From NCBI GenBank assembly GCA_963555705.1, contig OY743184.1:29544639-29608638 (forward strand): a DNA stretch of 64,000 nt, given 5' to 3'. This DNA comes from Ligustrum vulgare (Eukaryota > Streptophyta > Magnoliopsida > Lamiales > Oleaceae). The notes under the pieces are model-generated. The model had not been told where the DNA came from and made no database searches. It saw only the letters and a list, made by a program, of their open reading frames with translations. How positions within the stretch are numbered: the first letter of the stretch is position 1; each line of letters opens with the position of its first letter. The translations under genes were made by a program, and so were the position numbers. Below are positions 17,418 through 64,000 of this stretch, piece by piece.

Positions 17418-17422
17418 GGATC

Positions 17423-23590: not shown

Positions 23591-23603
23591 GGCTCTGATA
23601 CCA
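23591..23603 (-). other. Element A primer-binding site
   Basis: TGGTATCAGAGCC on the minus strand, two bases from the 5' LTR. It is a perfect match to the initiator tRNA-Met-type site. Confidence 0.92.
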
Positions 23604-23605
23604 GA

Positions 23606-31318: not shown

Positions 31319-33884
31319 TGATGAGTTCCGGAGTGGCTCGACGAGCGTTGACCCGTTGCACGTGCCCGTAGGACCCATAACGAGACAAAGAGCCAAAAGA
31401 ATCAAGCAAGCAATGCAAGGATTTATGCAAGCGTGGATGGACGAGTGCTCTAGTGCAAAGACTTCATTTACGTTGCATAAGAATGTGGAAGAGGAGCCAA
31501 AGTTATTGCAATGCATTTGGATCAAGGAAGAACAAGAAATTGGGCAGCAGCTGAGTCATGGCCGTAAAGACTGAAATCACGGCCGTGACGGATTCACGGT
31601 CGTAAAGCCAAAATTACGGCCGTAACACTACAATGGCGAAATTATGTAGAAGAGGACTTACGGCCGTAACCCACATCTTCACGGTCGTAAAGAGTTTGGT
31701 AACTTTTAATTCAGAATGTTGATTATGGCCGTAAAGGGTATTGTCACGGCCGTAACAAATGTTTTCAATTTTAATCCGTAGCTTGCTTAAGGCCGTAAAC
31801 TCATAAGTCACGGCCGTAACTTAGGTTCCGAATTTTAAGACAATGTTAGGCGTTTAGTTTATTTTGCAATTCTAGTTTATTTAGGTTTCTTTTTTTTGTT
31901 AGCAGATATGTGGCTTTATTCAGCATTGTAAAGACACAACTTTTATTCTTGAGATTAATGATATTGAAGGTGAGATATTCCCTTTGTGGTTCTTATCTCC
32001 GCATCGTAACGGGTTTTGGGTTTAATATACCCATAGTTCTTGCGTCGTGAGGTCGGGGTTGCATTGTTACCGTCTATATAGCGACCCAGAATTTTTATGC
32101 AATAAATAATTATTTTAAATATTTAGAAAATTGTATCGCTACTATTTCACCTATTATTTTGAAGTTAACGCCGCGACGGATTCGTCTAGCCAAGTCAAGA
32201 AATATCGAATTTGTTCGATTTTAAATTAAAATCCGAATTTCTAAAATTATGTTATTTTAATTATTTATTCAAAGTATTATTTTCAAAATCATTTTGAATT
32301 CCAAATTTATTAAAATATCCCAACAATATTCCTTATTAAATTATTTTAAGTCCAAAATATGTAATTCAATTTTTATCTCAAAATTCATCCATTCTCAGAT
32401 TTATTTTCAGTCCAAAATATATCTGTTTTAAATACATTTCTTAATCAAAGTTAGTCCAATTCTTATCATAATCAAAATTTTATTTCACACGTTTTGCTTT
32501 CTCTTTATACTCCTTTTCATCACATTATACAAGCATCATCATTATCATCACCACCCCTCCAAATCATGATATTCTCCACCATATTATTTTACAAAAAACC
32601 ATCTTTCCAGCAAGAAAGATGCTTCTCTTTATACATATCAGACCAATTATCATGAATTCAAGAAATCATCTCCTCCACCACCAGCAGCTCTAATGACAAG
32701 CAACAATACTTCAATCCCAATCTGCAACCATTTCAGCTCCACTGTCTACAATTCAAATTCACATCATCATCTTCATCACCACCACCACCACAGGAATTTC
32801 ATCACTGCCCAATTTCCTCAACTCCGTTCTAATCCAGTCATACCTCCAAAACCGTTGCCATATCAAATCACCACAGCTACTGCGTTTAAACACTCCAACT
32901 ACCATCAAACCAACCAGCAATCTGCCATCATCACCACCATATTCGTATCTTGCATCTAAACCATCTAGCTACCACTATCAAGCAGCCATTTGAATCCAAA
33001 CCTCCATCTCCAATCCACATTTTCATCACGATCAGAAACCAACCAAAATCATTCATCATCAGTTGGCACCCTGCAGCTTTTTCAACGCCAATTGAATCAT
33101 GAACAAGCAACCATCATCTGAATCAAATTTCCATTTGTCTGAAACTCAACCAATCATCATTAGCAGCATCACCACCTCCCATTTCGTTTATCACCATTTT
33201 GATCTCCAAATCAAACAATCTTAATCATCATCATCAATCAACACCAATCTGTATTAGATCACTCATGGCCAGCTTTCATTTTCAACAGCCAACCTCCATC
33301 ACGCCTCAACTTCAAACCGGCCAATCACCACCCAAACCACAGCAACACCACCAAGCACACTTTTTCCCTGCCTCTGCAATTCACCACTGCAACCAACCAA
33401 ATCAACTGCAATCCCACTTCCAGCAACCATTCCAGCCGCCTGCAGCTCACAGCTGGACCACCAATTAACCTCTACCTACAACACTACCACCAGCCTACTA
33501 CCCAGAATCATCACCACCTAACCTCCGATCCAAAACATCAAACCCAACTCCAAATCGCAACCCAAAATCAAAACCCCAAAAACCCAAGAAATAGAGTACC
33601 AAATACCTACCTTAAACCATCGCTGAATTTCCGCCGGAGTATCATCGCGAACCCTAGCTTCGAATCCAGCCCCGGTTCGCACACAAACTCTCACCCAATA
33701 CTCTCAAAACCTTTAACCGCCACTCACCGCCACCTTGCTACCGGTGTTGCGCCGGCGAGTCACCGGCTGAAGGGCGGATTTGGCTTGAATCGTCGCCTCC
33801 GCCTCTCTGTGTGGTCTCTCTCTCTCTCTTCGATCTGAATGAGAAGAGAAGATATATTTGATATTATATTTAACTTTCAGAAAT

Positions 33885-34175
33885 TACAGCTTAGTCCCTG
33901 AAGTTTTAAAAGCCTTTCAATTCAGTCCCTATGTTTTAAAAAGGTTTTATTTCAGTCCTTTCAGCTTTTAAACTTATCATTTCAGTCCCTGCTAATTTAC
34001 TTTATTTGATTTTAAGCTCAAGTTTCAAAAGTATTCATTTGAGTCTCTCAACTATCAAAAGTATTCAATTTAATCCCTCAACTTTCAAAGTATCTATTTT
34101 AGTCCCTGAACTTTCAAAAGTATTCATTTTAGTCCCTCAACTTTCAAAACATCAATTTTAGTCCTCAAATTATAA
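33885..34175. repeat. TTTAGTCCCT minisatellite in the family D solo LTR
   Basis: About eight degenerate units of roughly 30 bp share CATTTTAGTCCCTCAACTTT. The equivalent block in the other copy is 58790-59095. Confidence 0.8.
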
Positions 34176-34607
34176 TTTATCATTTTGAACTATATATTCG
34201 ATAGACTAAAGTGACTTATTGGCTAAGACGAAGCGTACGGAGAATTTAAAGAAATTGAAGTCATTCCCGCTCAACTTTGCACTCGTCGGATTTGAGGTAG
34301 ACTCGCACTTATTAATTGATTTAAATTATGATTTCATATGAATGTCATGTGACTTGTGAAAGTCAATTTTTAAGAAAAACAAGTATGTTTTTATGAAAGG
34401 TAAATATACCTTATGTTGTTATGAAAAGTAAGTATGTTTTTATGAAAAGAAAATATACTTTATGTTTTTACGAAAAGTAAGTATACCCTATGCTTCACGA
34501 AAATGTTTTTTTGGATCATTGCTATGAAATCAATCTACCAAGATTGTTTTGGGTCCCATATGATAAGTTATGATATGTTAAGGGGACCGGAGTTTTAGTA
34601 GCGCTAC

Positions 34608-34900
34608 ACATAAGAATTCTTGCCACCTAAGTTCGGTAACATTCTTGTGTCTCCATAAGTTTATGAGGATTTACCACCTAAGTTCGGTAAAATTCCTGTC
34701 TTTCCATATGTTTATGAGGATTTACCACCTAAGTTCGGTAAAATTCCTGTCGCATATGTTTATGAGGATTTCGATCCTATCTTATGTTATGATGCAATTG
34801 ATCCCTATGAATTTCAGAAAATTATGCTTGGTATACTTACTACATAAGAATTCTTACCACCTAAGTTCGGTAAAATTCTTATATTTATGAGGATTTCAAT
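34608..34900. repeat. ACCTAAGTTCGGTA minisatellite in the family D solo LTR
   Basis: Four units of about 45-50 bp contain CCACCTAAGTTCGGTAAAAT and TTTATGAGGATT. The second LTR copy has at least five (59408-59830), so copy number varies. Confidence 0.82.
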
Positions 34901-35501
34901 CCTATCTTATGTTATGCTTTCAAAAGAAATTATGCTTGGCATAATTAAAATGTTTTATAAGTATATGGTTTTCAAAGAACTGTTTTCAAAGAGATGTTTT
35001 CAAAGAGCATATGATTTGCAAAATATGTCCCGTGCTGTAATGCACAATATGAGTTTTATCAAGAGCAGTTTTATAAAGAAGCTCTATCAATGCCCGTTTT
35101 ATAAAGAGCCGGGATTTATGTGTTTAATCATCTTATAAATTAAATTAATTTGCGATGAGTCTACTGAGTATTTCCCCCATGAAATACTCACCCTACTTTT
35201 TAACAGTTTTGCAGATTTCGGAGACGGTGGCGAGCGATGAATAATGGTTCGATTTACTATTTCAAATGGTTTCATAAATGTTTTTAATTTTAGCGGCCAT
35301 TACATTATATTTAATGTTGCCAAAAATGAATTTCAATTATTTCTTCCGCAAAAATATTATTCGAAAAATTTAGACAGAAAATGACGTAGTGAATCGGGTA
35401 TACGGAACTCGGGGCGCTACAGTCTACTATCTTGGATTTTAGAACTTTCCGGCGTTTAATTCCGCGTGTTCTTGGTGATCCCCATAACGGATCACATCAT
35501 C

Positions 35502-35514
35502 TGGTATCAGAGCC
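35502..35514 (+). other. Element B primer-binding site
   Basis: TGGTATCAGAGCC, two bases after the LTR end. It is identical to the site in element A. Confidence 0.92.
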
Positions 35515-39100: not shown

Positions 39101-40703
39101 AGGATAGGTTATGTTCTGCACCGGTTTTAGCTTTACCTAACTTTAACCAAACCTTTGAGATTGAATGTGATGCATCAGGAATAGGTATTGGAGCTGTTCT
39201 TATGCAGGAAAAAAGACCGATTGCATTTTTCAGTGAAAAGCTGAGTGGGGCAGTCTTGAATTATCCTACCTACGACAAGGAGCTTTATGCTCTTATTCGT
39301 GCCTTGGAAACATGACAGCACTATCTGTGGCCAAAGGAATTCATTATACACACTGACCACGAGTCACTGAAACACCTCAAGGGACAAGGTAAGCTAAACA
39401 AAAGACACGCCCGTTGGATGGAATTCATTGAGACCTTTCCATATGTCATTCGCTATAAGCAAGGTAAGGAGAATGTGGTAGCAGATGCCCTTTCTCGCAG
39501 GTATGTTCTCTTAACTTCTTTAAATGCGAAGTTGCTTGGGTTCGAATATATTAAAGGTATGTATGCTAATGACCCTAATTTTTCTACCATTTATGCTTCA
39601 TGTGAAAAAGGTGCAATTGATAAATTTTATAGGCCTGATGGCTATTTGTTTAGGGAAAGTAAACTTTGTGTGCCTAATTGTTCTATGCGTGAATTGCTTG
39701 TGCGTGAGGCTCATGGTGGGGGGTTAATGGGGCACTTTGGTGTTTTTAAGACATTAGAAACTTTACAAGAGCATTTTTATTGGCCTAAAATGAAAAGGGA
39801 TGTTCACCATATTTGTGAAAGATGCATAACTTGTAAACAATCTAAGTCTAGAGTCTTACCACAAGGTTTGTATACACCTTTGCCCGTACCTAATGAACCT
39901 TGGGTAGATATATCTATGAATTTTGTGTTAGGTCTGCCTAGGACAAAAAAAGGTAAAGACTCGATATTTGTGGTGGTAGACAGGTTTAGCAAAATGGCGC
40001 ATTTTATTCCTTGTAATAAAACTGATGACGCAACTAACATAGCGGACCTATTCTTTAGGGAAGTTATAAGACTCCATGGGGTACCTAGGAGTATTGTGTC
40101 TGATAGGGATGTTAAGTTCCTAAGCTACTTTTGGAAAGTCTTGTAGGGGAAAATGGGTACTAGATTGTTATTTTCTACTGCATGTCACCCGCAAACTGAT
40201 AGTCAAACCGAGGTAGTTAAAAGGTGTGGGTGCACTTGCGAAAGGAGCGATTCCCAACCCAAAGAAAATCTAAGTTGCAGCCAAGAGGCGATGGACCTTT
40301 TCAGATCCTTGAAAAGATAAATGAGAATGCATATAAGCTCGATCTTCCAGGTGAGTATAATGTGTCTGCTTCTTTTAATGTTGCTGATCTTTCTTTGTTT
40401 GATGCAAGTGATGATTCGAGGACGAATCATTTTCAACAGGGAGGGGATGATGAGTTCCTGAGTGGCTCGACGAGCATTGACCCGTTGCACGTGCCCGTAG
40501 GACCCATAACGAGACAAAGAGCCAAAAGAATCAAGCAGGCAATGCAAGGATTCATGCAAACGTGGATGGACAAGTGCTCTAGTGCAAAGACTTCATTTAC
40601 GTTGCATAAGAATGTGGAAGAGGAGCCAAAGTTATTGCAATGCATTTGGATCAAGGAAGAACAAGAAATTGGGCAGCAGCTGAGTCACGGCCGTAAAGAC
40701 TGA
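36123..40703 (+). pseudogene. Element B gag-pol polyprotein, broken
   Basis: The ATG at 36123 opens a frame of 849 codons through gag (CCHC knuckle at about 37233-37277), protease (IIDGGSCANV) and the first part of RT. A one-base loss near 38573 shifts frame; RT resumes at 38627 with YFDDILV. The shared one-base loss near 38886 and the shared TGA at 39313-39315 (Trp expected) follow. Integrase has its HHCC finger, but the first catalytic Asp is Asn (39919-39921), TAG replaces Trp at 40144-40146, and about 350 bp after GAGGTAGTTAA (near 40218) is missing. The tail crosses the polypurine tract into the LTR and stops at 40703 after SHGRKD. Confidence 0.9.
40437..40447 (+). other. Element B polypurine tract
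   Basis: CAGGGAGGGGA immediately precedes the 3' LTR start TGATGAG. It is identical to element A and is also coding. Confidence 0.88.
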
Positions 40704-41350
40704 AATCACGGCCGTAACGGATTCACGGCCGTAAAGCCAAAATTACGGCCGTAACACTACAATGGAGAAATTATGCAGAAGAGGACTTACGGCCGTAACC
40801 CACATCTTCACGGCCGTAAAGAGTTTGGTAGCTTTTAATTCAGAATGTTGATTACGGCCGTAAATGGTATTGTCACGGCCCTAACAAATGTTTTCAATTT
40901 TAATCCGTAGCTTGCTTACGGCCGTAAACTCATAAGTCACGGCCGTAACTTAGGTTCCGAATTTTAAGACAATGTTAGGCGTTTAGTTTATTTTGCAATT
41001 CTAGTTTATTTAGGTTTCTTTTTTTTGTTAGCAGATATGTGGCTTTATTCAGCATTGTAAAGACAACTTTTATTCTTGAGATTAATGATATTGAAGGTGA
41101 GATATTCCCTTATATTTTCTTCGTGTTCTCGTCGAACAAATTAAACTTATCAAAGGATTTGAAAACCTTTGTGGCGTTCCCCCTTTGTGGTTCTTATCTC
41201 CGCATCGTAACGGGTTTTGGGTTTAATATACCCATAGTTCTTGCGTCGTGAGGTCGGGGTTGCATTGTTACCGTCTACTATCTTGGATTTTAGAGCTTTC
41301 CGGCGTTTAATTCCGCGTGTTCTTGGTGATCCCCATAACGGATCACATCA
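40448..41350 (+). repeat. Element B 3' LTR
   Basis: 903 bp, intact. It begins with the polyprotein tail, then the palindrome array (cores from 40689 to 40944), then the altered TATA region GCAGATATGTGG at 41031-41042, and ends GGATCACATCA. Confidence 0.93.
40685..40948 (+). promoter_or_regulatory. Paired palindrome array in element B 3' LTR
   Basis: Ten copies of TTACGGCCGTAA or TCACGGCCGTAA have GGCC cores starting at 40689, 40710, 40727, 40747, 40791, 40812, 40856, 40877, 40920 and 40941. Gaps are 21, 17, 20, 44, 21, 44, 21, 43 and 21. The 5' LTR of the same element has the same series. The first copy overlaps the last codons of the polyprotein. The array ends about 90 bp upstream of the TATA position. 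Confidence 0.78.
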
Positions 41351-41492
41351 GTTTGGGTTAAAATCCTATCGTCTAATTTAAATATTGTTTCTTGTGTTTA
41401 ATCTGAATTAAATCTTTCCTAAGTTTTTATTTTCGTTATTCAGCGTTTTCGTCGAGATTCACGAGTGGGATCGCGTTATCTAGTATCAGAGC
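41351..41492 (+). mobile_element. Family C LTR, right part, with primer-binding site
   Basis: This is the continuation of the LTR interrupted by element B. It ends near 41480 and is followed by TAGTATCAGAGC (41481-41492), one base from a tRNA-Met-type primer site. The internal region is lost soon after. Confidence 0.65.
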
Positions 41493-49709: not shown

Positions 49710-49746
<37 letters not shown>

Positions 49747-52729
49747 ACAGTTGCTACCTGGTAGAAATGGTAAGAATCAACATCTTTTATGTCCTTGAAG
49801 CCATCAGGATGCATGTGTACCCTCTTATTTTCATCAAACGAAGATGACGATCCATCATGATCTAATGATATATTAACATTTGGAACTTGAGCCAAAAGGA
49901 ACTGTCCATCCGCTCTATCTGGAGTTGATCTTTGCAAACATTTTGGGTTATCATTAACTCCGGTAGAAGTTGTTCCCCACACATCAGTAGCTTCTGGAGT
50001 TGGCGCAGATCCATGTGAACAAGCTTGAGCCTTCTTGTTGTTGGAAACGCGATGCTCATTCCAGTAGTTCTTTCTTTGCTCCAATTGTTTCATTGCAGCA
50101 CAGACATACGGAAGTTTCTGGATATCATCAGCTAGACCTGAATATGCCCTGGCTAACCAGCTATCTAGATCTGACATTGCCTCTCTAACAGATAAGTCCA
50201 CATCCGAAGTCAAGGAGAATTTCGAGAAAGAATCTTGAATCTCCGCATCAAAATGAATTCCTTCATTCTTTTTAAGAGACAAAGTAAATGAATCTTTTTG
50301 GCGAGTTAATAGAGCAAATTCTATTTCATCACCAATTTTGTGTTGCTCAACATTCTCAATGCGGACAGTGTATAAATCTTTTGACGATATCATTGTAAAG
50401 CATAGAGGGCACTTTTTCCAATGTTCAACTTTATGATCATCTTCATCCATTGAAAAATATTGCAAAATGCACGAGAAACAAAAGATATGACCACATGAGG
50501 TTATCTGTGAGCATAACGGATCTTCCAAACATATCGGACAGTGGACAGGAGAGGATGTTGAATACTTCAAGTAAATGATATCCTCCCAGCATAACATTTT
50601 GTCCGGATCCATAGACTCAAGCTCATAGTTTCCAGAATCTAGCAATACAAACTTGTAATTTGCTTGAAGGAACAGATCCTTGTTGTAAGGTTTTCTCTTG
50701 TGTTGTCTTCTGGCAGGAGGAGCCCTGGTCTGTGGACGAGAAACAGGTATAGGATCATAATGAAAATTCAATAAGTGATTGCCACTAACCATCTGAGCTT
50801 TCCTTCCTGTTAAATTTGTTCTTCCCTGAGAACTGGTAGATGGAGTACTCTGACGGCTGCATAAACCAACAGGGGTGGCAGAAGATTTCTCTTGCCTATC
50901 AGTAGATCCTACCCCAGCTTCTTGGTGTGAGCATGTACCACTGTTTTCCTGAGATTTATTATCATTTTGGCTCTCACACTCATTCAGCTGATGAGAGTGA
51001 GAAAAATAATGAAAAGGAGCAATCAAGCTTAATACATTTAAACCAAAATAAAATAAAATAACATTATATAAATTGTCCAAAAATAAGGAGTTAATTGTCC
51101 CAATAATCACCGAACTTATGATTGATCGCTGAACTTTAAAGTATCAAGTTTTAGTCACTAAACTTATCAAAATGTTGAACGTTAGACAATCATAGCTTTT
51201 GCGATAGAATTGATGACATGACAGACGAAATACACACGTTGCATTAAATCAAATTGCCACATCAGAAACTTTTAAAGACGTCTTCATTTGGTCGCTAAAC
51301 TTTTAAAAATATTTTCAATTGGTCACTAAACTTTTAATGACGTCTTCGATTGCTCACTGAACTTCAAGGTGGTGGAGTTATAATCACTAAACTTGTAAAA
51401 ATGACGTTGACTGAGCTAAAAAATTTAGAAATTTTCTTTCAAATTATAAGTTGCATACAACAAATAAATTATTTTCATATTTGATCTATAATATACATTG
51501 CAACAAAAAAATAATGCAACACACAAACATGTCTCACATTCACCAAAAAAAAAAAAAAAAAAATTCCGTAGATCTACATTAACGACAAACCTACAAAATA
51601 TAGTTTTTTCCTATATTTTTTGTTGCACAGATATATTTGACATGTTGACTTGTTGTCATTATTTTTTTGTTGTTAGTGTAGATTATACATCAAATATGAA
51701 AATAATTGATTTGTTGTATGCAACAATAATTGAAAGTGCATTTTTAAATATTCAGACCGCTCAACATCATTGTACAAGTTAAGTGATCAAAATTCGATCA
51801 CCTTAAAGTTTAGTGAACAATCAAAAACATTTTTAAAACTTTAGTCAGCGATCGAAGACTTTTTAAAAGTTTAATGACTAGTCGAAGACGTTTTTAATAG
51901 TTTAGGGACCAATCGAAGACCTTTTTAAAATTTTCAATTTGATGTGTCGTGATTAGTCTGTTAAAGGTCATGTGGTTCCACGTGTGTATTCTGTCCACCA
52001 TGTCATCAAATCTGTTGAGAGTTTCGTCGGAGAAAGTTACGTCAGTGACTAATGTACAATATTTTACTAAATTTAGTAATTAAAACTCGCCACTTTAAGC
52101 TTCATTGATCAATAGAAGACATAAACATAAGTTAAGTGACTAATGAGGCACATAACTCGAATGTAAGACAATAAAAAGCAGAGCAAAATTACCTCTCTGG
52201 AAGATCCATCAGAATATCCTGCAGCTGGAGCCACTTGCCCTGAAAAAGTGAACCGCAAATACAGTAAGCATTTCATACTGAAATTAACAAAAACCAAAAA
52301 AAAAAAAATCATCTTATTTATCAACTTAAATGACTCTGCAAAAGGGAAAATATTGCAATAGATAATGGAGAGTTAAACATTAACCAGGCAAAGCGCAGTA
52401 ATAGAGTTGTCAAATAAACTCCGAATGGAGCAGCCAAAAATTGGCTAATTTGATCGAATCTAGAGAAGGAGTTCAGGGTTTTATTTTCACTCAACATATT
52501 GAACACAAAAACAACCAAAAAAGTTGAAGTGAATTGAATTACAAAAGAAACAAGCAGAAGTATAATACAAACCCTTGAAATCGTCAGAAATTCGGAGAGA
52601 CTCAATGGAGGCATGGAAAGTTTGCTGCAGGAGATTAGATCCGCCATGATGTTGATGAGGAGATTCAGATGAAGGCTGAGTAGATGAAGATGACGTTGAA
52701 TCTAGATTTTTTGAGGGGGAGATGGACAT
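45825..52729 (-). CDS. RNF10-type RING-finger E3 ubiquitin ligase, nine exons
   Basis: GT/AG-bounded exons that keep frame: 52729-52573, 52239-52193, 50987-49758, 49385-49297, 48020-47918, 47826-47722, 47000-46883, 46225-46064 and 45979-45825, totalling 2166 coding bases (721 residues). Residues 218-264 form a RING of C3HC4 type (CPICLEDP, CGHIFCFSC, KKCPLC). Downstream, VDGQHIILHPLNMKCLLHHYGS and RRRYRFLSHF match the conserved RNF10 region; the C-terminus is Ser/Lys-rich. Animal relatives ubiquitinate small ribosomal subunit proteins; the plant role is inferred from family only. All joins preserve codons and no breaks were found, so the gene is probably functional. Introns host several small elements. 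The start was chosen as the first ATG of the first open exon. Confidence 0.9.
48667..48790 (+). mobile_element. Possible retroelement fragment in an RNF10-like intron
   Basis: GATATGATCCGGACCAGACA and the next 90 bases resemble the start of the family C segment at 30658 (GATCC, GCCATCG, AGTAAGTTCC in the same order). It is short, diverged and without clear ends. Confidence 0.35.
49505..49679. mobile_element. Tourist-like MITE in an RNF10-like intron
   Basis: A 175-bp element with ends GGCTCCGTTC and (inverted) GCCTCTGTTCGG, flanked by TAA at 49502-49504 and 49680-49682. It shares TTTTAACCACACA and overall size with the MITE at 16085-16258. It lies in the intron between the RING exon and exon 4. 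Confidence 0.72.
49711..49742. repeat. (CA)n microsatellite
   Basis: About 16 CA repeats in the intron just after the RING exon. A frame that runs through the splice site into this tract (VCVCVCV) is an artefact of intron reading. Confidence 0.95.
51092..52150. repeat. 1-kb imperfect inverted repeat in RNF10-like intron 2
   Basis: The left arm (from about 51092, AATAATCACCGAACTTATG) and right arm (to about 52150, CATAAGTTAAGTGACTAATG) pair over most of their length. Internal repeats of the TCACTAAACTT type occur in both arms, and a second pairing block lies near the centre (TGTTGTATGCAAC-type, 51430-51730). It fits a foldback or long-TIR element without coding capacity. Its target duplication was not found. 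Confidence 0.72.
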
Positions 52730-53483: not shown

Positions 53484-54545
53484 AATGAAAAATGGTATTT
53501 GGTAAAGATGGTCCTTAACCTATTCTCTTGTGCGATTTCAGCTCCTAATGTTTTTTTCTTGGCGTGAACATCCTCAACTTGTGGTTAATTTGCAAAGTCT
53601 GTCATTCCCTATAAATAAAAAAATAAAAAAAATAAAAAAGACATTTTTCTTGAACCATGTATCCTCCATGAGTAGCGGAAATCAACAATCTCATTGAAAT
53701 AACAATGACTATTCAGAAAAATTTGAAAGTTCAGTATTCATCGGAAAATAAAGGTGTTGAAATTAATTAGTGTCACTATTGAGATTTTAACAACCTCTCG
53801 CCATACATATATGTTTAATAAAGAAAAAAAAACATTTTAGAATTACTTCATACTATTATACTGCTTTCTCACGATGAGATCCGACCGTAAGATATAACTT
53901 CAAATGAAGAAAGATTTTGGAAGTATAGTTAAGCCTTTGATAATTCGACATTTTTTCGCATTTTCTAAGTTTGGATTTGGAGATAGTTTGAAGGATTTTG
54001 CTACTTGAACAACTAGTTGTTCAAACAACCACTCACATGGAGTGTGGGACACACAAGAATTTTTCTAGTTTGAATTGGGAAAATGTAACTTTCATTCATT
54101 TTGCTGCTATTTGTTTCTTTTCCAGTTTTCAAATCGGATGTGTTTCTTTGTGTGTGCCACCCTCCCCTAAACACTGTTTTCACTACCTTGGCTCAAATAT
54201 ATCCTAGTGTTCATGATGAACTAATAAACTGAAAATGCAATTAAACTTCAACGATGTAAAACAAACGTGTATACAAACATAGAATTACGTGTAAAGCAAT
54301 AAATAAAGAGTGCTGGTGGACTTTTGTTTCTAGAATTCACCAGCACAATAAGGTTTCAACACTGCTCCTTCACTTTGAATGTGTCTTTATTTTCATGAGT
54401 GGTTTCAACTTATCTAAATGGATAAACCCCTATAACCAGGTATGACCCAGTCATCATGACCTTAATTTGCCCAAAAATAGTTTGAGGCGGGAATTATACG
54501 ATAACACTAGTTGGCCAACCTCAAACTTCTTTCTTTGAATATGCA
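53484..54545. other. AT-rich intergenic sequence
   Basis: No gene seen. The last part (54390-54545) may be 3' flanking sequence of the integrase relic that follows on the minus strand. Confidence 0.4.
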
Positions 54546-54552
54546 TGTCATG

Positions 54553-55140
54553 TCACTTTTTTGTGTGTTCCTTGTACAGTTTTGAGCTCTCATATATATC
54601 TAGTCGAAATTCATCCATCTCATTAAGTTGGAGTAGCCACTTTTCACCTACTGCTTGTGAATCAAAATTCAGCTTCTTAACAGCCCAAATAACCTTGTGC
54701 TCCAATTCAACCGGTAGATGACATGCTTTCCCAAATATAAGGTGATATGGAGACATCTCTATAGGTTTTAGTCATTGTTTAGTATGCCCATAGAGAATCA
54801 TCTAGTTTCTTAGACTAATCTCTCCTTGTTGAGCTCACAATTCATCTCCAAGATTCTTTTAAGTTGCAGATTTGAAACTTCCACTTGCCCACTAGTTTGG
54901 GGATAATATGGGGTGAAAATCTTGTGTTTTACTCCATATTTCGCCAATAGTCTCTTAAACTGCCTGTTGCAAAAGTGTTTTCCCTATCACTAATTATAGC
55001 TTTTGGAGTGTAATATTGTGTGAAAATAATTTTTTTCAAAAATTCAATTACCACTCTGCCTTCATTTGTAGGCAATGCAACTGCTTCTGTCCATTTGGAC
55101 ACATAATCAACTTCTATAAGGATGTACTAATTAAAGTGAG
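54553..55140 (-). pseudogene. Athila-type Ty3/gypsy integrase relic
   Basis: On the minus strand the sequence reads, with stops and shifts, [16 protein letters not shown], then FLKKIIF and an IISD motif, then [20 protein letters not shown] and [15 protein letters not shown]. These are landmark blocks of Athila/Tat integrases in the right order. The HHCC finger, RT and LTRs are absent, so it is a small, old fragment. Confidence 0.82.
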
Positions 55141-55159
55141 AAGGAATGAATGGATACAT

Positions 55160-55646
55160 GGAATATGTTCCCCATGATAACCCAAGATAAACTAACCAAG
55201 GGGGGGTGAATTGGTTTTACAAAACTTTTTCGATAAATACTCTTAATTAAATACAATTAACCAATTATGAACAATAAATTATTAGGAGCACTAAACTTAT
55301 CAAGGTAAAAGGATAGGGATAAAAGAACTTAGACAATTTACCAAATACTACAATAAAAGGATTTTGCACAATATGAAATAAGAAATAAATACAAGTGCAA
55401 TGAACGTAAGTAAAATGGATAAGAGAGTGCAAACGATGATTTAAGGAGGAATCAACCAACGTAATCTACGTCCTCTGTTACCGAGGTCTCTGTCACGAGC
55501 AATGTCAAATCCACTATATTGATAACTCACAACAAGGAGTATCGAATCCTTAAGTGACTTTACAACAAAGATCACCTATCCTTTACAATCGAGTTTTCAC
55601 AAGGATCTCGAAACCATAAACAAAATACAAATGAGAATTTTACAAT
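55160..55646. repeat. Unclassified dispersed-repeat-like sequence
   Basis: It starts near CCCCATGATAACCC and contains AAGGGGGGGTGAATTGG, a phrase common in plant retroelement LTRs or TRIMs. No ends could be fixed. It stops sharply at 55647, where the long duplicated segment begins. Confidence 0.35.
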
Positions 55647-57053
55647 TGAAAGAAAGCAGCAAAATATTTTAAAAGATTTACCTTATATCATTGCTGAACT
55701 GCCAGAAGCCTCATTTTGTAAAACAGACTGGCAAACAGGATCTTTCGATATTATATTTTGGAGACTATAACGATTTTTGTCCTCGTTAAACTGAGCGTAT
55801 AAGGAGAGAAGTTCACGTTGTACATAACCACTTGGGTGCGTCTCAAGAGTCAGTCGAATATCATCCAAAGACTCCTTACTCAGTCCACCCTTTATGAATT
55901 CGATTTTATCATCCCGATTAGTAGAAGAATATCCTACTGATTTGCAACGAGTATCACAATTCCAACGAGCACATTTGTAGCAACCACCCAGCCTTTTTGC
56001 TCTTCGTTTCTTTGCGAACGTGCTTTTGCCTAAACCAGGCATATGTTTTGGAAATGTTGATGGTAATTCACCAGATAGTCGAACCTTTGCTTCTATCAAC
56101 CAGCGAACATCTTCTGGAATACCATGAGTCATCAGCAACCTCAATCTTTCGAGCCTTATTCTATAGATCTTTCTCAGATCATTCATAGGAAGACTGGAAT
56201 AATACTTGCGGATGTTTGTAAGGATGATATCCATTGTTTGATGATTCAACCTCTTCCCATCACGAACTATTTAAAAGCATTAAGGATCTGAGTGAATCCG
56301 CGTGATGTTGTGTCCAGCAAGAAAGAGCAGGATTATTTTAATGGAAAAGAGGGAACAAGAAGTTTATGCGCCGTTTACTTTATCGATAAAGGAGATTTGA
56401 TTGGAGATTTGGAATATTTTCTTGGATTATGGGTACTGATATTTTGTTTTAATAATAATAATCATGGTATAGTGTGATAATACGTGGAAAGTAAAATGAG
56501 TACCGTATTGAATCAGAATTCATACGTATATACAAGTGAAAGAAATACTTTGCAGGAAATGTGGTGACATTTAAGTATAGAATCTTAGTTTTGGGAGATA
56601 TTTGTTTACTGAATTTTGGGTTACAAATATTGGAAAGATAAGTTAATGATATTATGTTGATATGTTTGGGTATATTACGTAGAGAGAATATTCAGGTAAT
56701 TCTTTGATTATTTTGGGAATTTTCGATGATAAGAAAGGAAATTTTTTTATGATATGATATATCAGTAAAGATTTGTTGAAATTTTAGAGATATATACGAA
56801 TATTTGAGGTCACATGATACGATGATAAGTGACAAGTTACATGAATACTACAAGATATGATGAAATATCACATACGATTGGGAAAATTTCATTTTGATTC
56901 AGAAGAATTTATGAGTAGACACATATGTCTATTATTGATAAGAAAGACCATGTCTTAAGAAAACAAAGTGATGCATTTAGTCAAAGTCCAGTGGGTTAAA
57001 AAAAAAAAAAAAAAAAAATGGTTGGGTTAAATATGGTAGCGATGATGCTACAT
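55647..57053. repeat. Long direct repeat, copy 1
   Basis: Nearly identical to 62594-64000 at an offset of 6947 bp. The one difference I found is a poly-A run of 21 versus 20 bases (56998-57018 and 63945-63964). Copy 2 is cut by the window end. Copy 1 carries the 183-codon ORF but not the LOG gene. Confidence 0.93.
55683..56234 (-). CDS. Basic Cys-rich protein, virus-NABP-like, copy 1
   Basis: A 183-residue open frame from ATG at 56234, identical in sequence to the copy at 62630-63181. Residues 70-81 are a Lys/Arg-rich run (KSTFAKKRRAKR). Directly after come four Cys at 85, 88, 93 and 97 (CYKC...C...C). An LLMTHGIPEDV segment lies around residue 40. A basic run followed by a Cys cluster, after a helical N-terminus, resembles the small nucleic-acid-binding proteins encoded near the 3' end of Betaflexiviridae genomes (Pfam PF01623 type). 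That link is by pattern only. No signal peptide or membrane segment is seen. Copy 1 lies at the 5' edge of the truncated left repeat. Confidence 0.6.
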   Translation of the reverse strand: MDIILTNIRKYYSSLPMNDLRKIYRIRLERLRLLMTHGIPEDVRWLIEAKVRLSGELPSTFPKHMPGLGKSTFAKKRRAKRLGGCYKCARWNCDTRCKSVGYSSTNRDDKIEFIKGGLSKESLDDIRLTLETHPSGYVQRELLSLYAQFNEDKNRYSLQNIISKDPVCQSVLQNEASGSSAMI

Positions 57054-57104
57054 AAGAGAAAGAAGAAGAGATTCTGATTAAGTATTCAGAATTCATAAGA
57101 TCAA

Positions 57105-57148
57105 GTAAGTTTAATTTCGAGGACGAAATTATTTTAAGGAGGTAAGAT
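57105..57148 (+). other. Family D pol tail relic and polypurine tract
   Basis: AATTTCGAGGACGAAATT reads NFEDEI, the typical last residues of Tekay-type polyproteins, and TTTTAAGGAGGTAAGA forms the purine tract just before the LTR. This marks the sequence to the left as the 3' end of an element's internal region. Confidence 0.7.
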
Positions 57149-58789
57149 TATAGCGATCCAGAATTTTTCCGCAATTAATAATTATTTTAATATTTAGAAA
57201 ATTGTGTCGCTATTATTTTGAAATTAACGCCGCGACGAATTCGTCTAGCCAAGTCAAGAAATATCGAATTTGTTCGATTTTAAATTAAAATCCGAATTTC
57301 TAAAATTATGTTATTTTAATTATTTATTCAAAGTATTATATTCAAAATCTTTCTAAAATCCAAATTTGCCCACATGTCTTCTTCTTTACACCAAGACAAC
57401 AATTCTTTACACAATAACATCATCATTTTTGTACAAATAATTTTACACCTAATTCTACACTATCATATTCTATAGTATCAAATCAATACATATTCTTCCC
57501 CATCACAACTCACGTCCCCTACATTTTTTCTTCCTTCTTTATCATTCTTTCCACCTCAATATACCATCATCAAAGCATCTTCATCATTATCATTCATACA
57601 CCCACAAATTCCCTTCAATCACACAAAGTATTTCCAACTCATCTTGACCCAATTTCATCATCAAATCCACATTAAACAATTGTGATATTTTCCACCCTCT
57701 CACATTACCTAATTCTTCACTATTTTTCTTAATTAGCCAGCAAAACATATCATTATTATAAATTCTGATATCCTGCACCACCATTTCAGTCGACCAAGTT
57801 CGAGAAGAATAAACAATCACCACAATGATCTGCTTTCAATCCCTTTTTCCCAATTCAATACCAATAATAGATATCAATCTGAAACCAATTTGAAATCAAC
57901 CAAAACTGAATCATCATCGTATTGGCATCAACCTGCAGCTCCATCACCTAAGAAATTTGTATCATCATTTTCACTGCCCATTCTTGCTCACTGCACAAAA
58001 CCAAGAACCACCACAATGCAATCCACTGCCGCTGAACCACTGCAAAGCCACCATCTCCATCAAACAGCAACCATCATCCACCAACGCTGCTATTGTCAAT
58101 ACCAATCCACCACCGGTATCATCATCAGCATCACCCTGCCCTTGTTGAACTCCAAAACCAACTCATGGCCAATTCAACAACAAGTTTCACAATCTGTTTC
58201 AATCACAAATTTGCTGCCATCTCCAATTCCCCCTGTCCACTGTCATCAATAGAACATTACAAATCAAAAATCAATATAACCTCAACCAGCCACCACCTCC
58301 GTTAATCAATCCCCATCATCAACCATCCAACACTACTCTATATCCATCACCGGAATACATCCACTGCAAACCACCGATCGCACACTGCCCTTCAGTTGGA
58401 CACCCAACCGAATCCCAAACCTAGTCCCAAATCAATCATCCAAAAATAAAAACCCAAACCAAGAAATAGATGAAGCCCAGTTACTTACCTCACCTCAGAC
58501 CACCTCTTCGCCGGAAAATCACGACCTAAACCGCGAACCCTAGCTTCGGTTTCACACGGTTTTCGCACCTAAACTCGTACCAAACCTCTCAAAAATTGGA
58601 ACCCCCATCCTTGCCGTCGCTCACCGTAATCTACGCCTGCCTTTCGCCGGTGTTTTCGCCGTCGCAGCCCTTCGTCTTCTTCGATCGCGTTTTGAGAGAG
58701 ATTGAGTGAAGAGAGAGTAAGGTCGAGAGAAAGTATAGTGAGAGAGAGAAATGAGGAGCTGATTTATTTATTTAATTTCAGAATCTGCA

Positions 58790-59095
58790 GTTTAGTCCCT
58801 GAAGTTTTAAAGCCTTTCAATTCAGTCCCTATGTTTTAAAATGTCTTAATTCAGCCCTTTCAATTCTTTTTAAAGTTATCCATTTCAGCCCCAAAGTTTT
58901 AAATGAGTTTTAATCAGCCCTTTCATTTTCAAAATCTATTATTTCAGTCACTGTTGATTTACTTTTAAGCCCAAGTTTTAAAAGTATTCATTTTAGTCCC
59001 TTAACTTTCAAAATATTCATTTTAGTCCCTGAACTTTGAAAATATTCATTTTAGTCCCTCAACTTTCAAAACATCAATTTAGTCCTCAAATTATA
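58790..59095. repeat. TTTAGTCCCT minisatellite, second LTR copy
   Basis: Degenerate units of about 30 bp match 33885-34175 with a slightly different unit order. Confidence 0.78.
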
Positions 59096-59407
59096 ATTTA
59101 TCATTTTGAACTATATATTCGATATACTAAAGTGACTTATTGGCTAAGACGAAGCGTACGGAGAATTTAAAGAAATTGAAGTCATTCCCGCTCAACTTTG
59201 CACTCGTCGGATTTGAGGTAGACTCGCACTTATTAATTGATTTAAATTATGATTTCATATAAATGTCATGTGACTTGTGAAAGTCAATTTTTAAGAAAAA
59301 CAAGTATGTTTTTATGAAAGGTAAATATACCTTATGTTTTTATGAAAAGTAAGTATACCCTATGTTTTTACGATAATGTTTTATATGTTTTGGATCATTG
59401 CTATGCA

Positions 59408-59830
59408 CATAAGAATTCTTACCACCTAAGTTCGGTAGAATTCTGTGTCTCCATAAGTTTATGAGGATTTACCACCTAAGTTCGGTAAAATTCCTGTCTT
59501 TCCATATGTTTATGAGGATTTACCACCTAAGTTCGGTAAAATTCCTGTCGCGTATGTTTATGAGGATTTCGATCCTATCTTATGTTATGATGGAAATGAT
59601 CCCTATGAATTTCATGAATTATGTTTTGGTATACTTAATGTTATTATGATTTTACTACATAAGAATTCTTGCCACCTAAGTTCGGTAAAATTCTTATATT
59701 TATGAGGATTTCGATCTTATCCTATGTTATGATGAAAACTTACTGTTATTATGATTTTACTGCATAAGAATTCTTGCCACCTAAGTTCGGTAAAGTTCTT
59801 GTGTCTATTTATGTTTATGAGGATTTCAAT
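59408..59830. repeat. ACCTAAGTTCGGTA minisatellite, second LTR copy
   Basis: At least five units contain CCACCTAAGTTCGGTAAAAT and TTTATGAGGATT, against four in the solo LTR. Confidence 0.8.
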
Positions 59831-60475
59831 CATATCTTATGTTATGCTTTCAAAAGAAATTATGCTTGGCATAATTAAAATATTTTTATAAGTATATGGT
59901 TTTCAAAGAGCTGTTTTCAAAGAGCCTATGATTTGCAAAATATGTCCCGTGCTGTAATGCACAATATGAGTTTTATCAAGAGCAGTTTTATAAAGAAGCT
60001 CTATCAATGCCCGTTTTATAAAGAGCCGGGATTTATGTGTTTAATCATCTTATAAATTAAATTAATATGCGATGAGTCTACTGAGTATTTCCCCCATGAA
60101 ATACTCACCCTACTTTTTAACAGTTTTGCAGATTTCGGAGACGGTGGCGAGCGATGAATGATGGTGGCAATAATCGTTAAACGGTTGAAAGTTTGACGTT
60201 AATGATTTCCGTATTTTTCCAAACAATCGAATAATTTAGAGAAGTTCATTTATTTGAGAAATTATGACATTGTCAATTTCTTTACAAAATTAATGGTTCG
60301 ATTTACTATTTCAAATGGTTTCATAAATGTTTCAATTTTATCGGTCATTACAGTATATTTAATGTTGCCAAAAATGAATTTCAATTATTTCTTCCGCAAA
60401 AAAAATATTATTCGAAAAATTTAGACAGAAAATGACGTAGTGAATCGGGTATACGGAACTCGGGGCGCTACAAGT

Positions 60476-60487
60476 TGGTATCAGAGC
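60476..60487 (+). other. Primer-binding site of the family D element
   Basis: TGGTATCAGAGC, a perfect tRNA-Met-type site, three bases after the LTR end. Confidence 0.92.
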
Positions 60488-61316
60488 TAGTCTGCGTTTC
60501 TGTAGACTGGTAAAATTTTAAAAAAAAAAAAGAATTTTCAAGAAATATTTTCCATTATAAAATTTTATTGATGAAGATTGCCACTGCCATCATTCGTTCC
60601 ACCAACTCCGAGGTAAAGAAGTTTATGATGTTTAAAGTTATTTCAGTATTTCGAATACTCATTTTACTAATTTATGAGAAAGAATGAAGAGTATTTCGGA
60701 TACTTATGATTTATGAGAAATAAGAATGTATTTCTTCGAAAATAATGATGTTGTTATGCTTTGTCATAACTTATATGCTTTAATGTATGATTATGATAAA
60801 AAATTTTTAAGAAAGAAAACGAGTGTTGAGCATAATGGGAATAATATGATTTTATTGAGAATTAAGTAATGGATATTATGTTGAGTAAGTGAATTATTTC
60901 CTCTATTTTGAAGAGAAATTTATTATGAAGTTTGGCCTTGTGAATATTTTGGGAATATGATTTATGGCATATATTTATAAGTATGAGTTATCTTTTGAGC
61001 CATTAAGGTATCGAAGGAAGTGATATTGTGATATTGAAAAAAATAATTTGAAATTGTTATGTTGAGGAATTATGAATTGAATTATGGGATATTTTTGATG
61101 ATATTGAAGTGTTGGAATTATTTTCAATATTTTTAGATCGTTGTGATCAAATGTGGAGTTATATGTTATTGTTAGTTATGAAATATACTTATGGTTTGAG
61201 ATAAGTTCAAATTACAAGGGAAACTCTGCCTAGAATTTTTATCGTTTGGAATTAAGAGCATGATATGATAAGCATCTACTAAAGGAATTAAGGTTAGACA
61301 TGCAAGTTCATTTACA
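60488..61316. other. Non-coding internal region of the family D element
   Basis: Very AT-rich, with no gag or pol similarity that I can find where gag is expected. GGGAAACTCTGCCTAGAATT at about 61218 resembles GGAGACTCTG stretches of the Tekay-like LTR (13444), so this may be old LTR-derived sequence. Confidence 0.5.
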
Positions 61317-61457
61317 TCACAAACGAGATTTAGTAGATGATAGCAGAGATTTTATTATTTTCTCATAAGGAGAACACACAAGAGTCACAATGGAAAGGAA
61401 ATACATGAAACACACAAAAGCAAACGAGAGAAGCATGGGATAATCCTCAAAATGAGA

Positions 61458-61668
61458 GATGTGTTTCCGGAGTAGCCGTATCCTACCACCTCTGATCTTT
61501 TGAGGAAATAAAGAAACCTTCAAAGAGGTGTGTTTCGAGAGTAAGAATACTCCGTAATCTACCACCTGGAACCTTTGAGGTACACACAATATTTAAACAT
61601 TAAGGAAATCCTAGTAAATGGAGGGGTGTCTCGAGAGTGAGAATACTCCGTACTCTACCCCCACCTAT
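61458..61668 (-). repeat. Three spaced copies of a 43-bp motif downstream of LOG
   Basis: On the minus strand, related units lie at 61626-61668, 61530-61571 and 61458-61493. They share AGGTGGTAG, TACGGAGTATTCT and CTCTCGA. Each could fold at ACGGAGTATTCTCACTC-like sequence. They sit in what would be the 3' region of the LOG transcript. The unit nearest LOG begins 9 bp after its stop. Role unknown. Confidence 0.65.
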
Positions 61669-61676
61669 TCTAAGAT

Positions 61677-62330
61677 TCACAGAGTTAAGTTTACATTAAC
61701 CGGACTCCATTTTCGCTTGATTCCCCTTCCTTGCGACCAATCTATCTTAACCCCTGCTGGATCTTGTATTGAGATATATGACTGCAGCTTATCCAGTAGT
61801 TCATCAATAGTAGGAGCAGAAATAAGAAGCCTTCTGGAAAATGGAGAGATGAATCCCTGTTCCACAGCATAATCAAGAAAGGTTAACAAACCATCAAAGA
61901 AATTGTTAACATTCAGAAGCCCAATAGGCTTAGTATGGAGATCTAGTTGAGCCCATGAGGTAATGTTAAAGATTTCTTCTAAGGTACCAAAACCTCCGGG
62001 CAGGGCTATAAAGGCATCAGAACCATATAGCATACAAGTTATGCGTTCATGGATGGATAAGGTTTGAACTTCATGCCCTCGTGTTTTGCCTGCAACATCT
62101 ACCAAAGGGACAGGTATGACACCGATTACTTTTGATTTCTCTGCAAGAGCAGATTGGGAAACACAACCCATTAGACCACTGCTACCACCCCCATATACAA
62201 GAGTGATACCTTTTTCCCCCAGTTTCTTTCCAAGATCTACAGCCGCTTCTAGATAACCGAAGCCTTTCCCCACTTTTGATCCACAAAATACACAAATAGT
62301 TTTGATTTGTCGAAGTTTTGGTGCTTCCAT
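61677..62330 (-). CDS. LOG-like: LOG-type cytokinin riboside 5'-monophosphate phosphoribohydrolase, intronless
   Basis: A 217-residue intact frame, ATG at 62330 and TGA at 61677-61679. The LOG fold is evident: VFCGS (14-18), YGGGSSGLMG (46-55), the catalytic Arg in HERIT (Arg96) and PGGFGTLEE (111-119), with the same 23-residue Arg-Glu spacing as in known LOG enzymes. These release active free-base cytokinin from nucleotide forms in the cytosol. Plant LOG genes normally have several introns; this has none, pointing to a copy made through RNA. It lies antisense inside an LTR element, with a TATA-like box about 75 bp upstream. No poly-A tail or target repeats of its own were seen. The C-terminal tail (KRKWSPVNVNLTL) is unusual and basic. 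Activity is inferred from intact motifs. Confidence 0.88.
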   Translation of the reverse strand: MEAPKLRQIKTICVFCGSKVGKGFGYLEAAVDLGKKLGEKGITLVYGGGSSGLMGCVSQSALAEKSKVIGVIPVPLVDVAGKTRGHEVQTLSIHERITCMLYGSDAFIALPGGFGTLEEIFNITSWAQLDLHTKPIGLLNVNNFFDGLLTFLDYAVEQGFISPFSRRLLISAPTIDELLDKLQSYISIQDPAGVKIDWSQGRGIKRKWSPVNVNLTL

Positions 62331-62402
62331 CTTTGATAGTATAGAAGAGAAAACTTACGAAGAAGATGTGATTTTGGGATGCCTGAACTATGAAATATGT
62401 TT

Positions 62403-62414
62403 GGCTATTTAAAG
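62403..62414 (-). promoter_or_regulatory. TATA-like box upstream of LOG
   Basis: CTTTAAATAGCC on the minus strand, 73 to 84 bp upstream of the start codon. The upstream interval to the 183-codon ORF is about 220 bp, AT-rich, with a CTTTTGACAAAATC-type direct repeat. Confidence 0.5.
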
Positions 62415-62629
62415 CCGGAAAAATTTACTGTTTTTGATTGATTCTGAAAAAGTAAAGATTTACTTTTGACAAAATCAACCCACTTTTGAATATTTTTATC
62501 GTATCGAGGCTGTCACCTTTCGGCGATTAAATATTTTATTTCCAGCTTTATCAAACCTCGAGAAAGGAAAATATATTTTATTTTCAAAACGCGTGAAAGA
62601 AAGCAGCAAAATATTTTAAAAGATTTACC

Positions 62630-63181
62630 TTATATCATTGCTGAACTGCCAGAAGCCTCATTTTGTAAAACAGACTGGCAAACAGGATCTTTCGATATTA
62701 TATTTTGGAGACTATAACGATTTTTGTCCTCGTTAAACTGAGCGTATAAGGAGAGAAGTTCACGTTGTACATAACCACTTGGGTGCGTCTCAAGAGTCAG
62801 TCGAATATCATCCAAAGACTCCTTACTCAGTCCACCCTTTATGAATTCGATTTTATCATCCCGATTAGTAGAAGAATATCCTACTGATTTGCAACGAGTA
62901 TCACAATTCCAACGAGCACATTTGTAGCAACCACCCAGCCTTTTTGCTCTTCGTTTCTTTGCGAACGTGCTTTTGCCTAAACCAGGCATATGTTTTGGAA
63001 ATGTTGATGGTAATTCACCAGATAGTCGAACCTTTGCTTCTATCAACCAGCGAACATCTTCTGGAATACCATGAGTCATCAGCAACCTCAATCTTTCGAG
63101 CCTTATTCTATAGATCTTTCTCAGATCATTCATAGGAAGACTGGAATAATACTTGCGGATGTTTGTAAGGATGATATCCAT
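62630..63181 (-). CDS. Basic Cys-rich protein, virus-NABP-like, copy 2
   Basis: The same 183-residue protein as copy 1, here in its fuller context: it stands 299 bp upstream of the LOG gene on the same strand, so the two form a divergent-free, same-direction pair inside the LTR element and antisense to it. The start is the ATG at 63181; an earlier TTG in frame is not a likely start. A TATA-like box (63214-63224) lies about 35 bp upstream. Basic run at residues 70-81 and Cys at 85, 88, 93 and 97 as in copy 1. A viral origin is plausible but rests on pattern alone; a plant zinc-binding protein of unknown family is the alternative. Confidence 0.6.
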   Translation of the reverse strand: MDIILTNIRKYYSSLPMNDLRKIYRIRLERLRLLMTHGIPEDVRWLIEAKVRLSGELPSTFPKHMPGLGKSTFAKKRRAKRLGGCYKCARWNCDTRCKSVGYSSTNRDDKIEFIKGGLSKESLDDIRLTLETHPSGYVQRELLSLYAQFNEDKNRYSLQNIISKDPVCQSVLQNEASGSSAMI

Positions 63182-63213
63182 TGTTTGATGATTCAACCTC
63201 TTCCCATCACGAA

Positions 63214-63224
63214 CTATTTAAAAG
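63214..63224 (-). promoter_or_regulatory. TATA-like box upstream of the 183-codon ORF (copy 2)
   Basis: CTTTTAAATAG on the minus strand, 33 to 43 bp before the ATG. It is close in sequence to CTTTAAATAG upstream of LOG. The equivalent in copy 1 is at 56267-56277. Confidence 0.45.
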
Positions 63225-64000
63225 CATTAAGGATCTGAGTGAATCCGCGTGATGTTGTGTCCAGCAAGAAAGAGCAGGATTATTTTAATGGAAAAGAGGG
63301 AACAAGAAGTTTATGCGCCGTTTACTTTATCGATAAAGGAGATTTGATTGGAGATTTGGAATATTTTCTTGGATTATGGGTACTGATATTTTGTTTTAAT
63401 AATAATAATCATGGTATAGTGTGATAATACGTGGAAAGTAAAATGAGTACCGTATTGAATCAGAATTCATACGTATATACAAGTGAAAGAAATACTTTGC
63501 AGGAAATGTGGTGACATTTAAGTATAGAATCTTAGTTTTGGGAGATATTTGTTTACTGAATTTTGGGTTACAAATATTGGAAAGATAAGTTAATGATATT
63601 ATGTTGATATGTTTGGGTATATTACGTAGAGAGAATATTCAGGTAATTCTTTGATTATTTTGGGAATTTTCGATGATAAGAAAGGAAATTTTTTTATGAT
63701 ATGATATATCAGTAAAGATTTGTTGAAATTTTAGAGATATATACGAATATTTGAGGTCACATGATACGATGATAAGTGACAAGTTACATGAATACTACAA
63801 GATATGATGAAATATCACATACGATTGGGAAAATTTCATTTTGATTCAGAAGAATTTATGAGTAGACACATATGTCTATTATTGATAAGAAAGACCATGT
63901 CTTAAGAAAACAAAGTGATGCATTTAGTCAAAGTCCAGTGGGTTAAAAAAAAAAAAAAAAAAAATGGTTGGGTTAAATATGGTAGCGATGATGCTACATA

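Follow-up and report, generated by a model that had tools for sequence, protein, structure and literature searches.

Why would a long terminal repeat (LTR) element in which no gag-pol was found carry two intact genes in antisense, one encoding a LOG-like protein and the other a protein resembling viral nucleic acid-binding proteins (NABPs)? This question is raised by the window, the 64,000-nucleotide stretch of DNA analyzed here. Non-autonomous elements are expected to lack selected genes, but here two genes have been kept intact during a recent burst. We conclude that natural selection keeps both genes intact in this gag-pol-less family through the burst, which is our main new point, and that the remodeled tail of the LOG-like protein is the second. 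The window contains the following features.

32077..35421, + strand: related solo LTR, 3345 bp, with the TSD GTCTA at 32072-32076 and 35422-35426
55647..57148, + strand: tandem duplicate of the internal region, truncated on the left, in which NABP again has an intact ORF (55686-56234, - strand)
57136-57148, + strand: PPT-like AAGGAGGTAAGAT, adjoining the LTR start
57149..60472, + strand: 5' LTR, 3324 bp, of the element with the NABP-LOG pair
60473..64000 in the window, ending at 64094, + strand: internal region, no gag-pol found
60476..60487, + strand: primer-binding site (PBS) TGGTATCAGAGC, 3 nt past the LTR
61677..62330, - strand: intact, intronless gene for a LOG-like protein of 217 aa that has catalytic Arg96 and PGGxGTxxE
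61680..61718, - strand: C-terminal tail codons, KRKWSPVNVNLTL, a basic stretch and a degenerate EAR-like end
62405..62414, - strand: putative TATA-like box upstream of LOG, CTTTAAATAG, retained in 29/29 copies
62630..63181, - strand: NABP-like gene, intact, 183 aa from the ATG
62891..62959, - strand: basic motif KKRRAKR plus C-X2-C-X4-C-X3-C (Cys 85, 88, 93 and 97)
63214..63224, - strand: putative TATA-like box upstream of NABP, CTTTTAAATAG, retained in 29/29 copies

The 3324-bp LTR at 57149-60472 (+) has the ends TATAGCG...CGCTACA. Its 3' partner, which an earlier sequence-only reading had predicted as the next LTR, starts at 64095, beyond the window edge, and matches 57149-60472 perfectly (100%) over its first 1921 bp, after which it is broken. 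The PBS that the same reading placed at 60476 was confirmed as TGGTATCAGAGC, which we take to be of the tRNA-Met type, and AGTTGGTATCAGAGCT occupies the PBS in 8/8 other copies having both LTRs. The ends of the LTR were fixed by means of the related solo LTR with its flanking GTCTA and empty site; the solo LTR interrupts the LTR of another element, and the empty target is readable at 17480-17520. Aligned over 2809 columns, the solo LTR and the LTR at 57149-60472 share 79.7% identity. In its left half (32001-34000), the solo LTR displays a very strong GC skew of -0.47, i.e. a C-rich strand. The PPT region of the element presumably resembles that of Tekay/Del chromoviruses. Besides the gene pair, the internal region holds no ORF >90 aa, and neither a gypsy integrase ORF nor a protease/integrase piece from Citrus gave a significant tblastn match to this region. 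The segment at 55647-57148, which the sequence-only reading did not note, duplicates the right-hand portion of the internal region; between 55647-57054 and 62594-64000, the only difference is one base in an A-run. Thus, NABP occurs twice in the window and LOG once.

Is the element a member of a mobile family? A search of the genome (1.385 Gb, 51 contigs) for other copies, as the sequence-only reading had suggested, revealed many dispersed copies rather than a single locus with no LTR copies elsewhere. The candidate totals (8796, 9447 and 3934) come from a loose first pass and do not represent numbers of copies. The best 150 of the 8796 NABP candidates are all full length, 97-100% identical and free of stops; the best 150 of the 9447 LOG candidates are all identical at 217/217 residues, free of stops and located on contigs C1-C4, a restriction presumably due to the limit of 150; and for the non-coding 5' internal region, all 40 matches scored show 95-100% identity. 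Nine dispersed copies, chosen by NABP and fetched in two stretches each, all contain NABP and LOG in the same order and orientation, with identities of 98.6-100% for LOG and 99.5-100% for NABP. Both LTRs are present in eight of the nine (2910-3615 bp; identity 0.9970-1.0000, or 0-9 differences), and the 5' LTR of the ninth was not seen in the stretch taken. The PBS and PPT lie next to the LTRs in all eight two-LTR copies (with one variant base) and in the window. A perfect 5-bp TSD flanks seven of the eight; in the other, another PBS follows, indicating a tandem unit. The family is a recent burst of real insertions, as the LTR identity of 99.7-100% within elements dates the burst to recent times, and the dispersed copies with LTRs, TSDs and both genes bear out the earlier proposal of an LTR element without gag-pol that carries the pair as cargo. 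Because the sampled copies came from lists of best matches, they are young and intact, and old copies that have decayed are under-represented. Many copies are arranged in tandem, with a spacing of about 6.1-7.2 kb that equals the combined length of an LTR and an internal region. Two arrays of five NABP copies each, regularly spaced at about 6.5 kb (G000:C22:15290865-15317298) and about 6.7 kb (G000:C9:10258304-10285519), give the impression that units of LTR plus internal region were multiplied in a head-to-tail manner.

To avoid choosing copies by the genes themselves, 20 further copies were chosen by non-coding DNA from the 40 scored 5' internal matches. LOG is full length and open in 19 of these 20 copies (one partial), and NABP in 18 (one partial, one absent). 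The mean dN/dS (NG86; 17 distinct sequences each) is 0.084 for LOG (dN 0.0030, dS 0.036) and 0.185 for NABP (dN 0.0094, dS 0.051), small values that among recent copies reflect few source lineages. The LOG ratio is 0.090 in the NABP-chosen copies. Another copy set, partly biased by choice, yielded 0.072 for LOG (13 distinct) and 0.111 for NABP (10 distinct), the latter being biased since NABP itself had served to select most of that set. Across the window and eight elements, the mean pairwise identity is 83.9% for the LTRs, 96.8% for the 5' internal part, 94.8% for the spacer, 98.7% for LOG and 99.3% for NABP. These observations suggest that the two selected genes help the element to succeed in its host.

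The similar CTTT(T)AAATAG boxes reported earlier upstream of both genes are present and are retained in 29/29 copies, but as single strings they could be chance occurrences, with expectations of 0.38 and 0.11 per window. An average string of equal length is retained in 78% of cases between the genes and in 54% before NABP, whereas both boxes are retained throughout. Strings conserved as well as the boxes make up 5% of the 11-mers upstream of NABP and 19% of the spacer 10-mers.

What kind of protein does the 183-codon gene encode? Its resemblance to flexi-like virus proteins, pointed out in the sequence-only reading, is real at the profile level. The ORF matches PF05515 (Viral_NABP) at 1.5e-7 (32.0 bits vs a Pfam cut-off of 23; residues 17-120) and PF01623 (Carla_C4) at 6.3e-6 (26.5 bits vs a cut-off of 20.9). 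The control sequences, consisting of the reversed sequence and the shuffles made (4/6), gave no NABP match, and one shuffle matched an unrelated family (E 0.047). A search for relatives yielded 345 homologues among 400 candidates; the organisms named among the 120 listed are Orobanche, Populus, Xanthoceras and Acer, and 36/37 aligned members match PF05515 and 34/37 match PF01623 (E 0.01). A distant relative on contig L001 reaches the PF05515 cut-off (34.2 bits) but not that of PF01623 (19.8 bits), and its comparison with the window NABP gives dN 0.285 and dS 1.354 (NG86) or dN 0.273 and dS 0.833 (LWL85). IMG/VR scans with the single NABP sequence and with the NABP alignment, as well as a phage collection scan, found no relatives; a PHROGs scan gave no match, and a PDB search returned five rows with a best E of only 0.38. 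The fold model is poor (pLDDT 58), and a viral fold search with it produced 0 matches below E 0.001; its top row, a silencing suppressor of Grapevine Kizil Sapak virus (E 0.096, 34% over 83 columns), is a hint only. In the relevant passages of PMC3689765 and PMC12172455, viral cysteine-rich proteins (CRPs) are described as silencing suppressors, and those of carlaviruses and allexiviruses, like the NABP here with its above-cut-off Pfam match, have a basic motif ahead of a Cys cluster. Compared with the CRPs in these passages, however, the NABP is longer, has a different Cys spacing and sits in a plant retroelement beside LOG. Its C-X2-C-X4-C-X3-C differs from the zinc-finger-like C-X2-C-X9-C-X4-C of the carlavirus PVH CRP. 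Moreover, a carlavirus CRP is encoded by a viral genome, whereas this NABP lies in a 1.385-Gb plant genome and has no IMG/VR relative.

The LOG-like gene is, as originally claimed, an intact antisense gene with catalytic motifs: its 217-aa ORF matches PF03641 at 1.3e-33 and contains Arg96 and PGGxGTxxE. Its best PDB match is At2g37210 (1.6e-57), and the structure model (pLDDT 86.6) predicts a LOG fold with confidence and a disordered stretch in the last 17 residues. The protein appears to share its fold, as well as the catalytic Arg and PGGxGTxxE, with the canonical plant LOGs At2g37210 (PDB 2a33) and At5g11950 (PDB 1ydh), but it differs from canonical plant LOG in forming a separate tree group, lacking the Lys after the Arg, having an extra tail and being intronless; canonical plant LOG genes contain introns. 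In 19/19 open LOG copies of the genome, the Arg, GGFGTLEE and the tail KRKWSPVNVNLTL, which is disordered in the structure model, are invariant. LxLxL is the EAR motif, which binds TOPLESS, and the VNVNLTL end of the genome's copies (19/19) departs from its strict form. We compared listed LOG relatives (the best-scoring rows, 118 after dropping P0122 and P0123, of which only part has been shown to lie in elements) with a canonical set of the 63 best-scoring rows that remained after removing 12 of P0273-P0347 (8 metagenomic, 2 Xanthoceras and 2 fused). The catalytic Arg is present in 111/118 listed relatives. The Lys that follows it in 63/63 canonical LOGs is found in 6/118 listed relatives and replaced in 112/118. 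LxLxL occurs within the last 12 residues in 92/118 listed relatives, against 4.6/118 expected by chance (last 25 residues shuffled), in 0/63 canonical LOGs and in 23/33 NABP-fused models. Basic stretches (3 of 6 residues) are found in the last 25 residues of 106/118 listed relatives vs 6/63 canonical LOGs. Cytokinin production by the element's LOG is possible. An IMG/VR scan with the LOG alignment found no relatives, and a PHROGs scan with LOG returned one DprA-like family. The CpG observed/expected ratio is 0.36 in LOG (61677-62330) vs 0.84 in NABP. A warning follows for plant genome annotation: models that bear the name LOG may belong to transposons.

How old is the pair? A search with the joined NABP and LOG ORFs gave 858 matches, of which 120 were listed, and 37 of the listed models were examined, including every listed row with PF01623. 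Both parts are present in 33/37, and NABP precedes LOG in 31/33; the 33 come from three Orobanche species, Citrus x changshan-huyou and Acer yangbiense. These models probably arose when gene predictors joined neighboring genes, and would thus show adjacency. The catalytic residues are kept in 2 of the 33 fused models, at least one is lost in 23, and 8 do not cover them. The tail is kept in 15 of the 23 catalysis-losing models, in Orobanche and Citrus only, which perhaps reflects two events. Both models with intact catalytic residues lack a strict LxLxL, and no fused model therefore has both. In Citrus model P0276, a piece resembling integrase (64% over 56 aa with the L001 ORF) is followed by NABP and then by LOG. 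On contig L001, the NABP ORF lies 192 nt after an ORF with integrase domains on the same strand, which we assign, by assumption, to an Athila-like lineage, and no LOG was found in the last kilobase. L001 (1-3330) looks like retroelement DNA of a plant but is assigned to a Candidatus Nomurabacteria MAG, and is thus probably contamination. Among metagenomic contigs, the sizes 8723 and 4511 each recur for an NABP and a LOG, which is suggestive only. Reevesia contributes 38 of the 120 listed LOG relatives, on 16 chromosome labels. In this genome, relatives of the L001 integrase are plentiful (91 scored of 31051 candidates, 71-73%). In three Athila-like elements sampled from the 91 scored, neither NABP nor LOG occurs in the roughly 3.6 kb that follow the integrase, and no autonomous partner was found among them; hence, the pair is seen in this genome in the non-autonomous family only.

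In a LOG tree of 76 rows, some of them long, 43 rows (the window, the list, the fused LOGs and two Xanthoceras rows) are split from the canonical and bacterial rows by a branch with 100/98 support, and 29 canonical rows, including both Arabidopsis LOGs, group at 99/95. The window falls within a 38-row group (99/94), closest to P0121 and then to Diospyros and Orobanche rows (100/100, 8 rows). Five rows fall between this 38-row group and the bacteria: P0161, P0212 and Acer P0262, which come from the list or the fused models, and the two Xanthoceras rows, which had been classed as canonical. In a label test, the list group required 5 changes, in part owing to the separate label given to fused rows. 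The tree fits one old origin of these LOGs. NABP and LOG distances correlate, with a Mantel r of 0.784 (p 0.0006) on 7 thinned pairs that leave out P0249, whose LOG piece spanned its NABP, and an r of 0.896 (p 0.015) on 5 pairs when two pairs that were assumed because their contigs have the same length are also left out. On sequence comparison, the NABP-LOG pairing is old and not freshly taken from RNA.

What, then, could the pair do for the element? We consider it somewhat probable that the pair is cargo kept by selection in a non-autonomous LTR family that underwent heavy and recent amplification, with a partner supplying the copying machinery. Under this proposal, the element would obtain copying machinery from a partner element and itself supply two accessory proteins, possibly transcribed on the minus strand from the CTTT(T)AAATAG boxes. 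NABP may act in the nucleus on nucleic acid and, by analogy with flexivirus cysteine-rich proteins, blunt silencing, and LOG may act via its enzyme site and/or its basic EAR-like tail. Copies with a broken pair would spread less well, and the benefit would thus fall at least partly to the element itself. A bolder scenario, which we regard as unlikely, is that the gag-pol-less element lives by defence-breaking genes, namely, a silencing-blunting NABP and a nuclear protein derived from LOG whose tail binds a co-repressor, while the partner replicates it. If true, this would be a two-part transposon alliance in which replication is borrowed from the partner and repaid by disarming the host. It is possible, although doubtful, that LOG instead serves as an enzyme whose cytokinin drives cell division and thereby aids the element, with NABP adding proliferation like carlavirus p12, a reading that overlaps with the selected-cargo explanation. 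The invariance of the catalytic residues in 19/19 open copies, the retention of Arg, GGxGT and Glu in 104/118 listed relatives, the confidently predicted LOG fold and the hyperplasia that CVB p12 causes according to part of PMC12172455 are consistent with an enzymatic role. However, the canonical Lys after the catalytic Arg (63/63) is replaced in 112/118 listed relatives, and catalytic residues are lost in 23/33 NABP-fused models elsewhere, 15 of which keep the tail.

Selection itself would be illusory if the pair were a functionless passenger swept along by few source copies, with low dN/dS resulting from recombination or conversion. Such a passenger would suit a recent burst with LTRs 99.7-100% identical within elements, and recombination could explain why the LTRs differ between elements (83.9%) and the internal part does not (94.8-99.3%). 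Conversion, however, does not selectively remove non-synonymous changes, and in the non-coding-chosen copies dS is 0.036-0.051 and dN 0.003-0.009; we thus find this account improbable. The joint uptake of the pair from a viral or other RNA, which the sequence-only reading had raised, draws on the viral-type NABP domain and the intronless LOG. As a recent event it is very improbable, given that the same ordered pair occurs in distant eudicots, NABP stands beside a gypsy integrase in L001, LOG groups apart from canonical plant LOGs in the tree, and the IMG/VR scans (NABP, NABP alignment and LOG alignment) found no relative. Independent of all these readings, flexiviruses may have taken their NABP domain from plant retroelements, a conceivable but rather doubtful reversal that the large size of the plant NABP family favors and the naming of the Pfam families for viral proteins does not.

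Steinbauerova et al. reportedly described Athila-like elements with LOGL4 similarity in 2011. Athila-like Ty3/gypsy elements are defined by their own gag-pol, whereas none was found in the window element. Section 12 of PMC9289625, citing Steinbauerova et al. 2011 for YgdH/LOG in gypsy elements, reports that Ty3/gypsy consensus sequences from two Citrus species, and also from Populus when unfiltered, contain YgdH/LOG domains. As in our element, the LOG homologue is an extra ORF there, but an NABP partner, a tail, an antisense non-autonomous carrier and a selection test are not mentioned in that section. The cargo proposal of the sequence-only reading stands. In the open-licence literature, judged by titles and abstract openings, we found no paper on the NABP-LOG cassette; LOG in Ty3/gypsy elements is already known, and the NABP partner was not found. 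Antisense accessory ORFs, as here, occur in maize Grande (gene23, with its own promoter reported), RIRE2 and Retand according to PMC7264820, but the elements presented there have gag-pol and their ORFs are described as bearing no clear resemblance to any known protein; the main text of PMC7264820 makes no mention of log, lysine decarboxylase or carla. Extra ORFs of plant elements are also treated in part of PMC6317226. The internal region of a large retrotransposon derivative (LARD) is, by contrast with that of our element, non-coding, and two intact selected genes make the element LARD-like only. Like a LARD, the element has an internal region in which no gag-pol was found. It shares the non-autonomous nature, size of >4 kb, LTRs, PBS and PPT given for LARDs in the pertinent part of PMC6696364, but unlike them carries two intact genes under purifying selection. 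Both genes belong to families with known biochemistry, and their role can thus be tested. The pair would bear on how plant transposons escape silencing and ties an RNA-virus protein family to plant retroelements.

Elsewhere in the window, two Ty3/gypsy elements, at 17422-24491 and 31319-41351, are 98% identical over 4.8 kb on opposite strands; the former has gag and RT, and the LTR of the latter is split by the solo LTR. An Rfam scan of 55000-64000 gave no match. A degenerate integrase fragment at 54457-55210, left of the truncated NABP copy, is closer to the L001 integrase (pieces of 51% and 34%) than the window's other gypsy elements are (26-28%). Transposon remains at 3-2809 (Transposase_21, DUF4218 and DUF4216) are presumably of the CACTA type. 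A long imperfect palindrome occupies 51266-51903 (74% over 656 columns), and a 477-codon open frame with a RING finger at 49713-51143 is perhaps a host gene exon.
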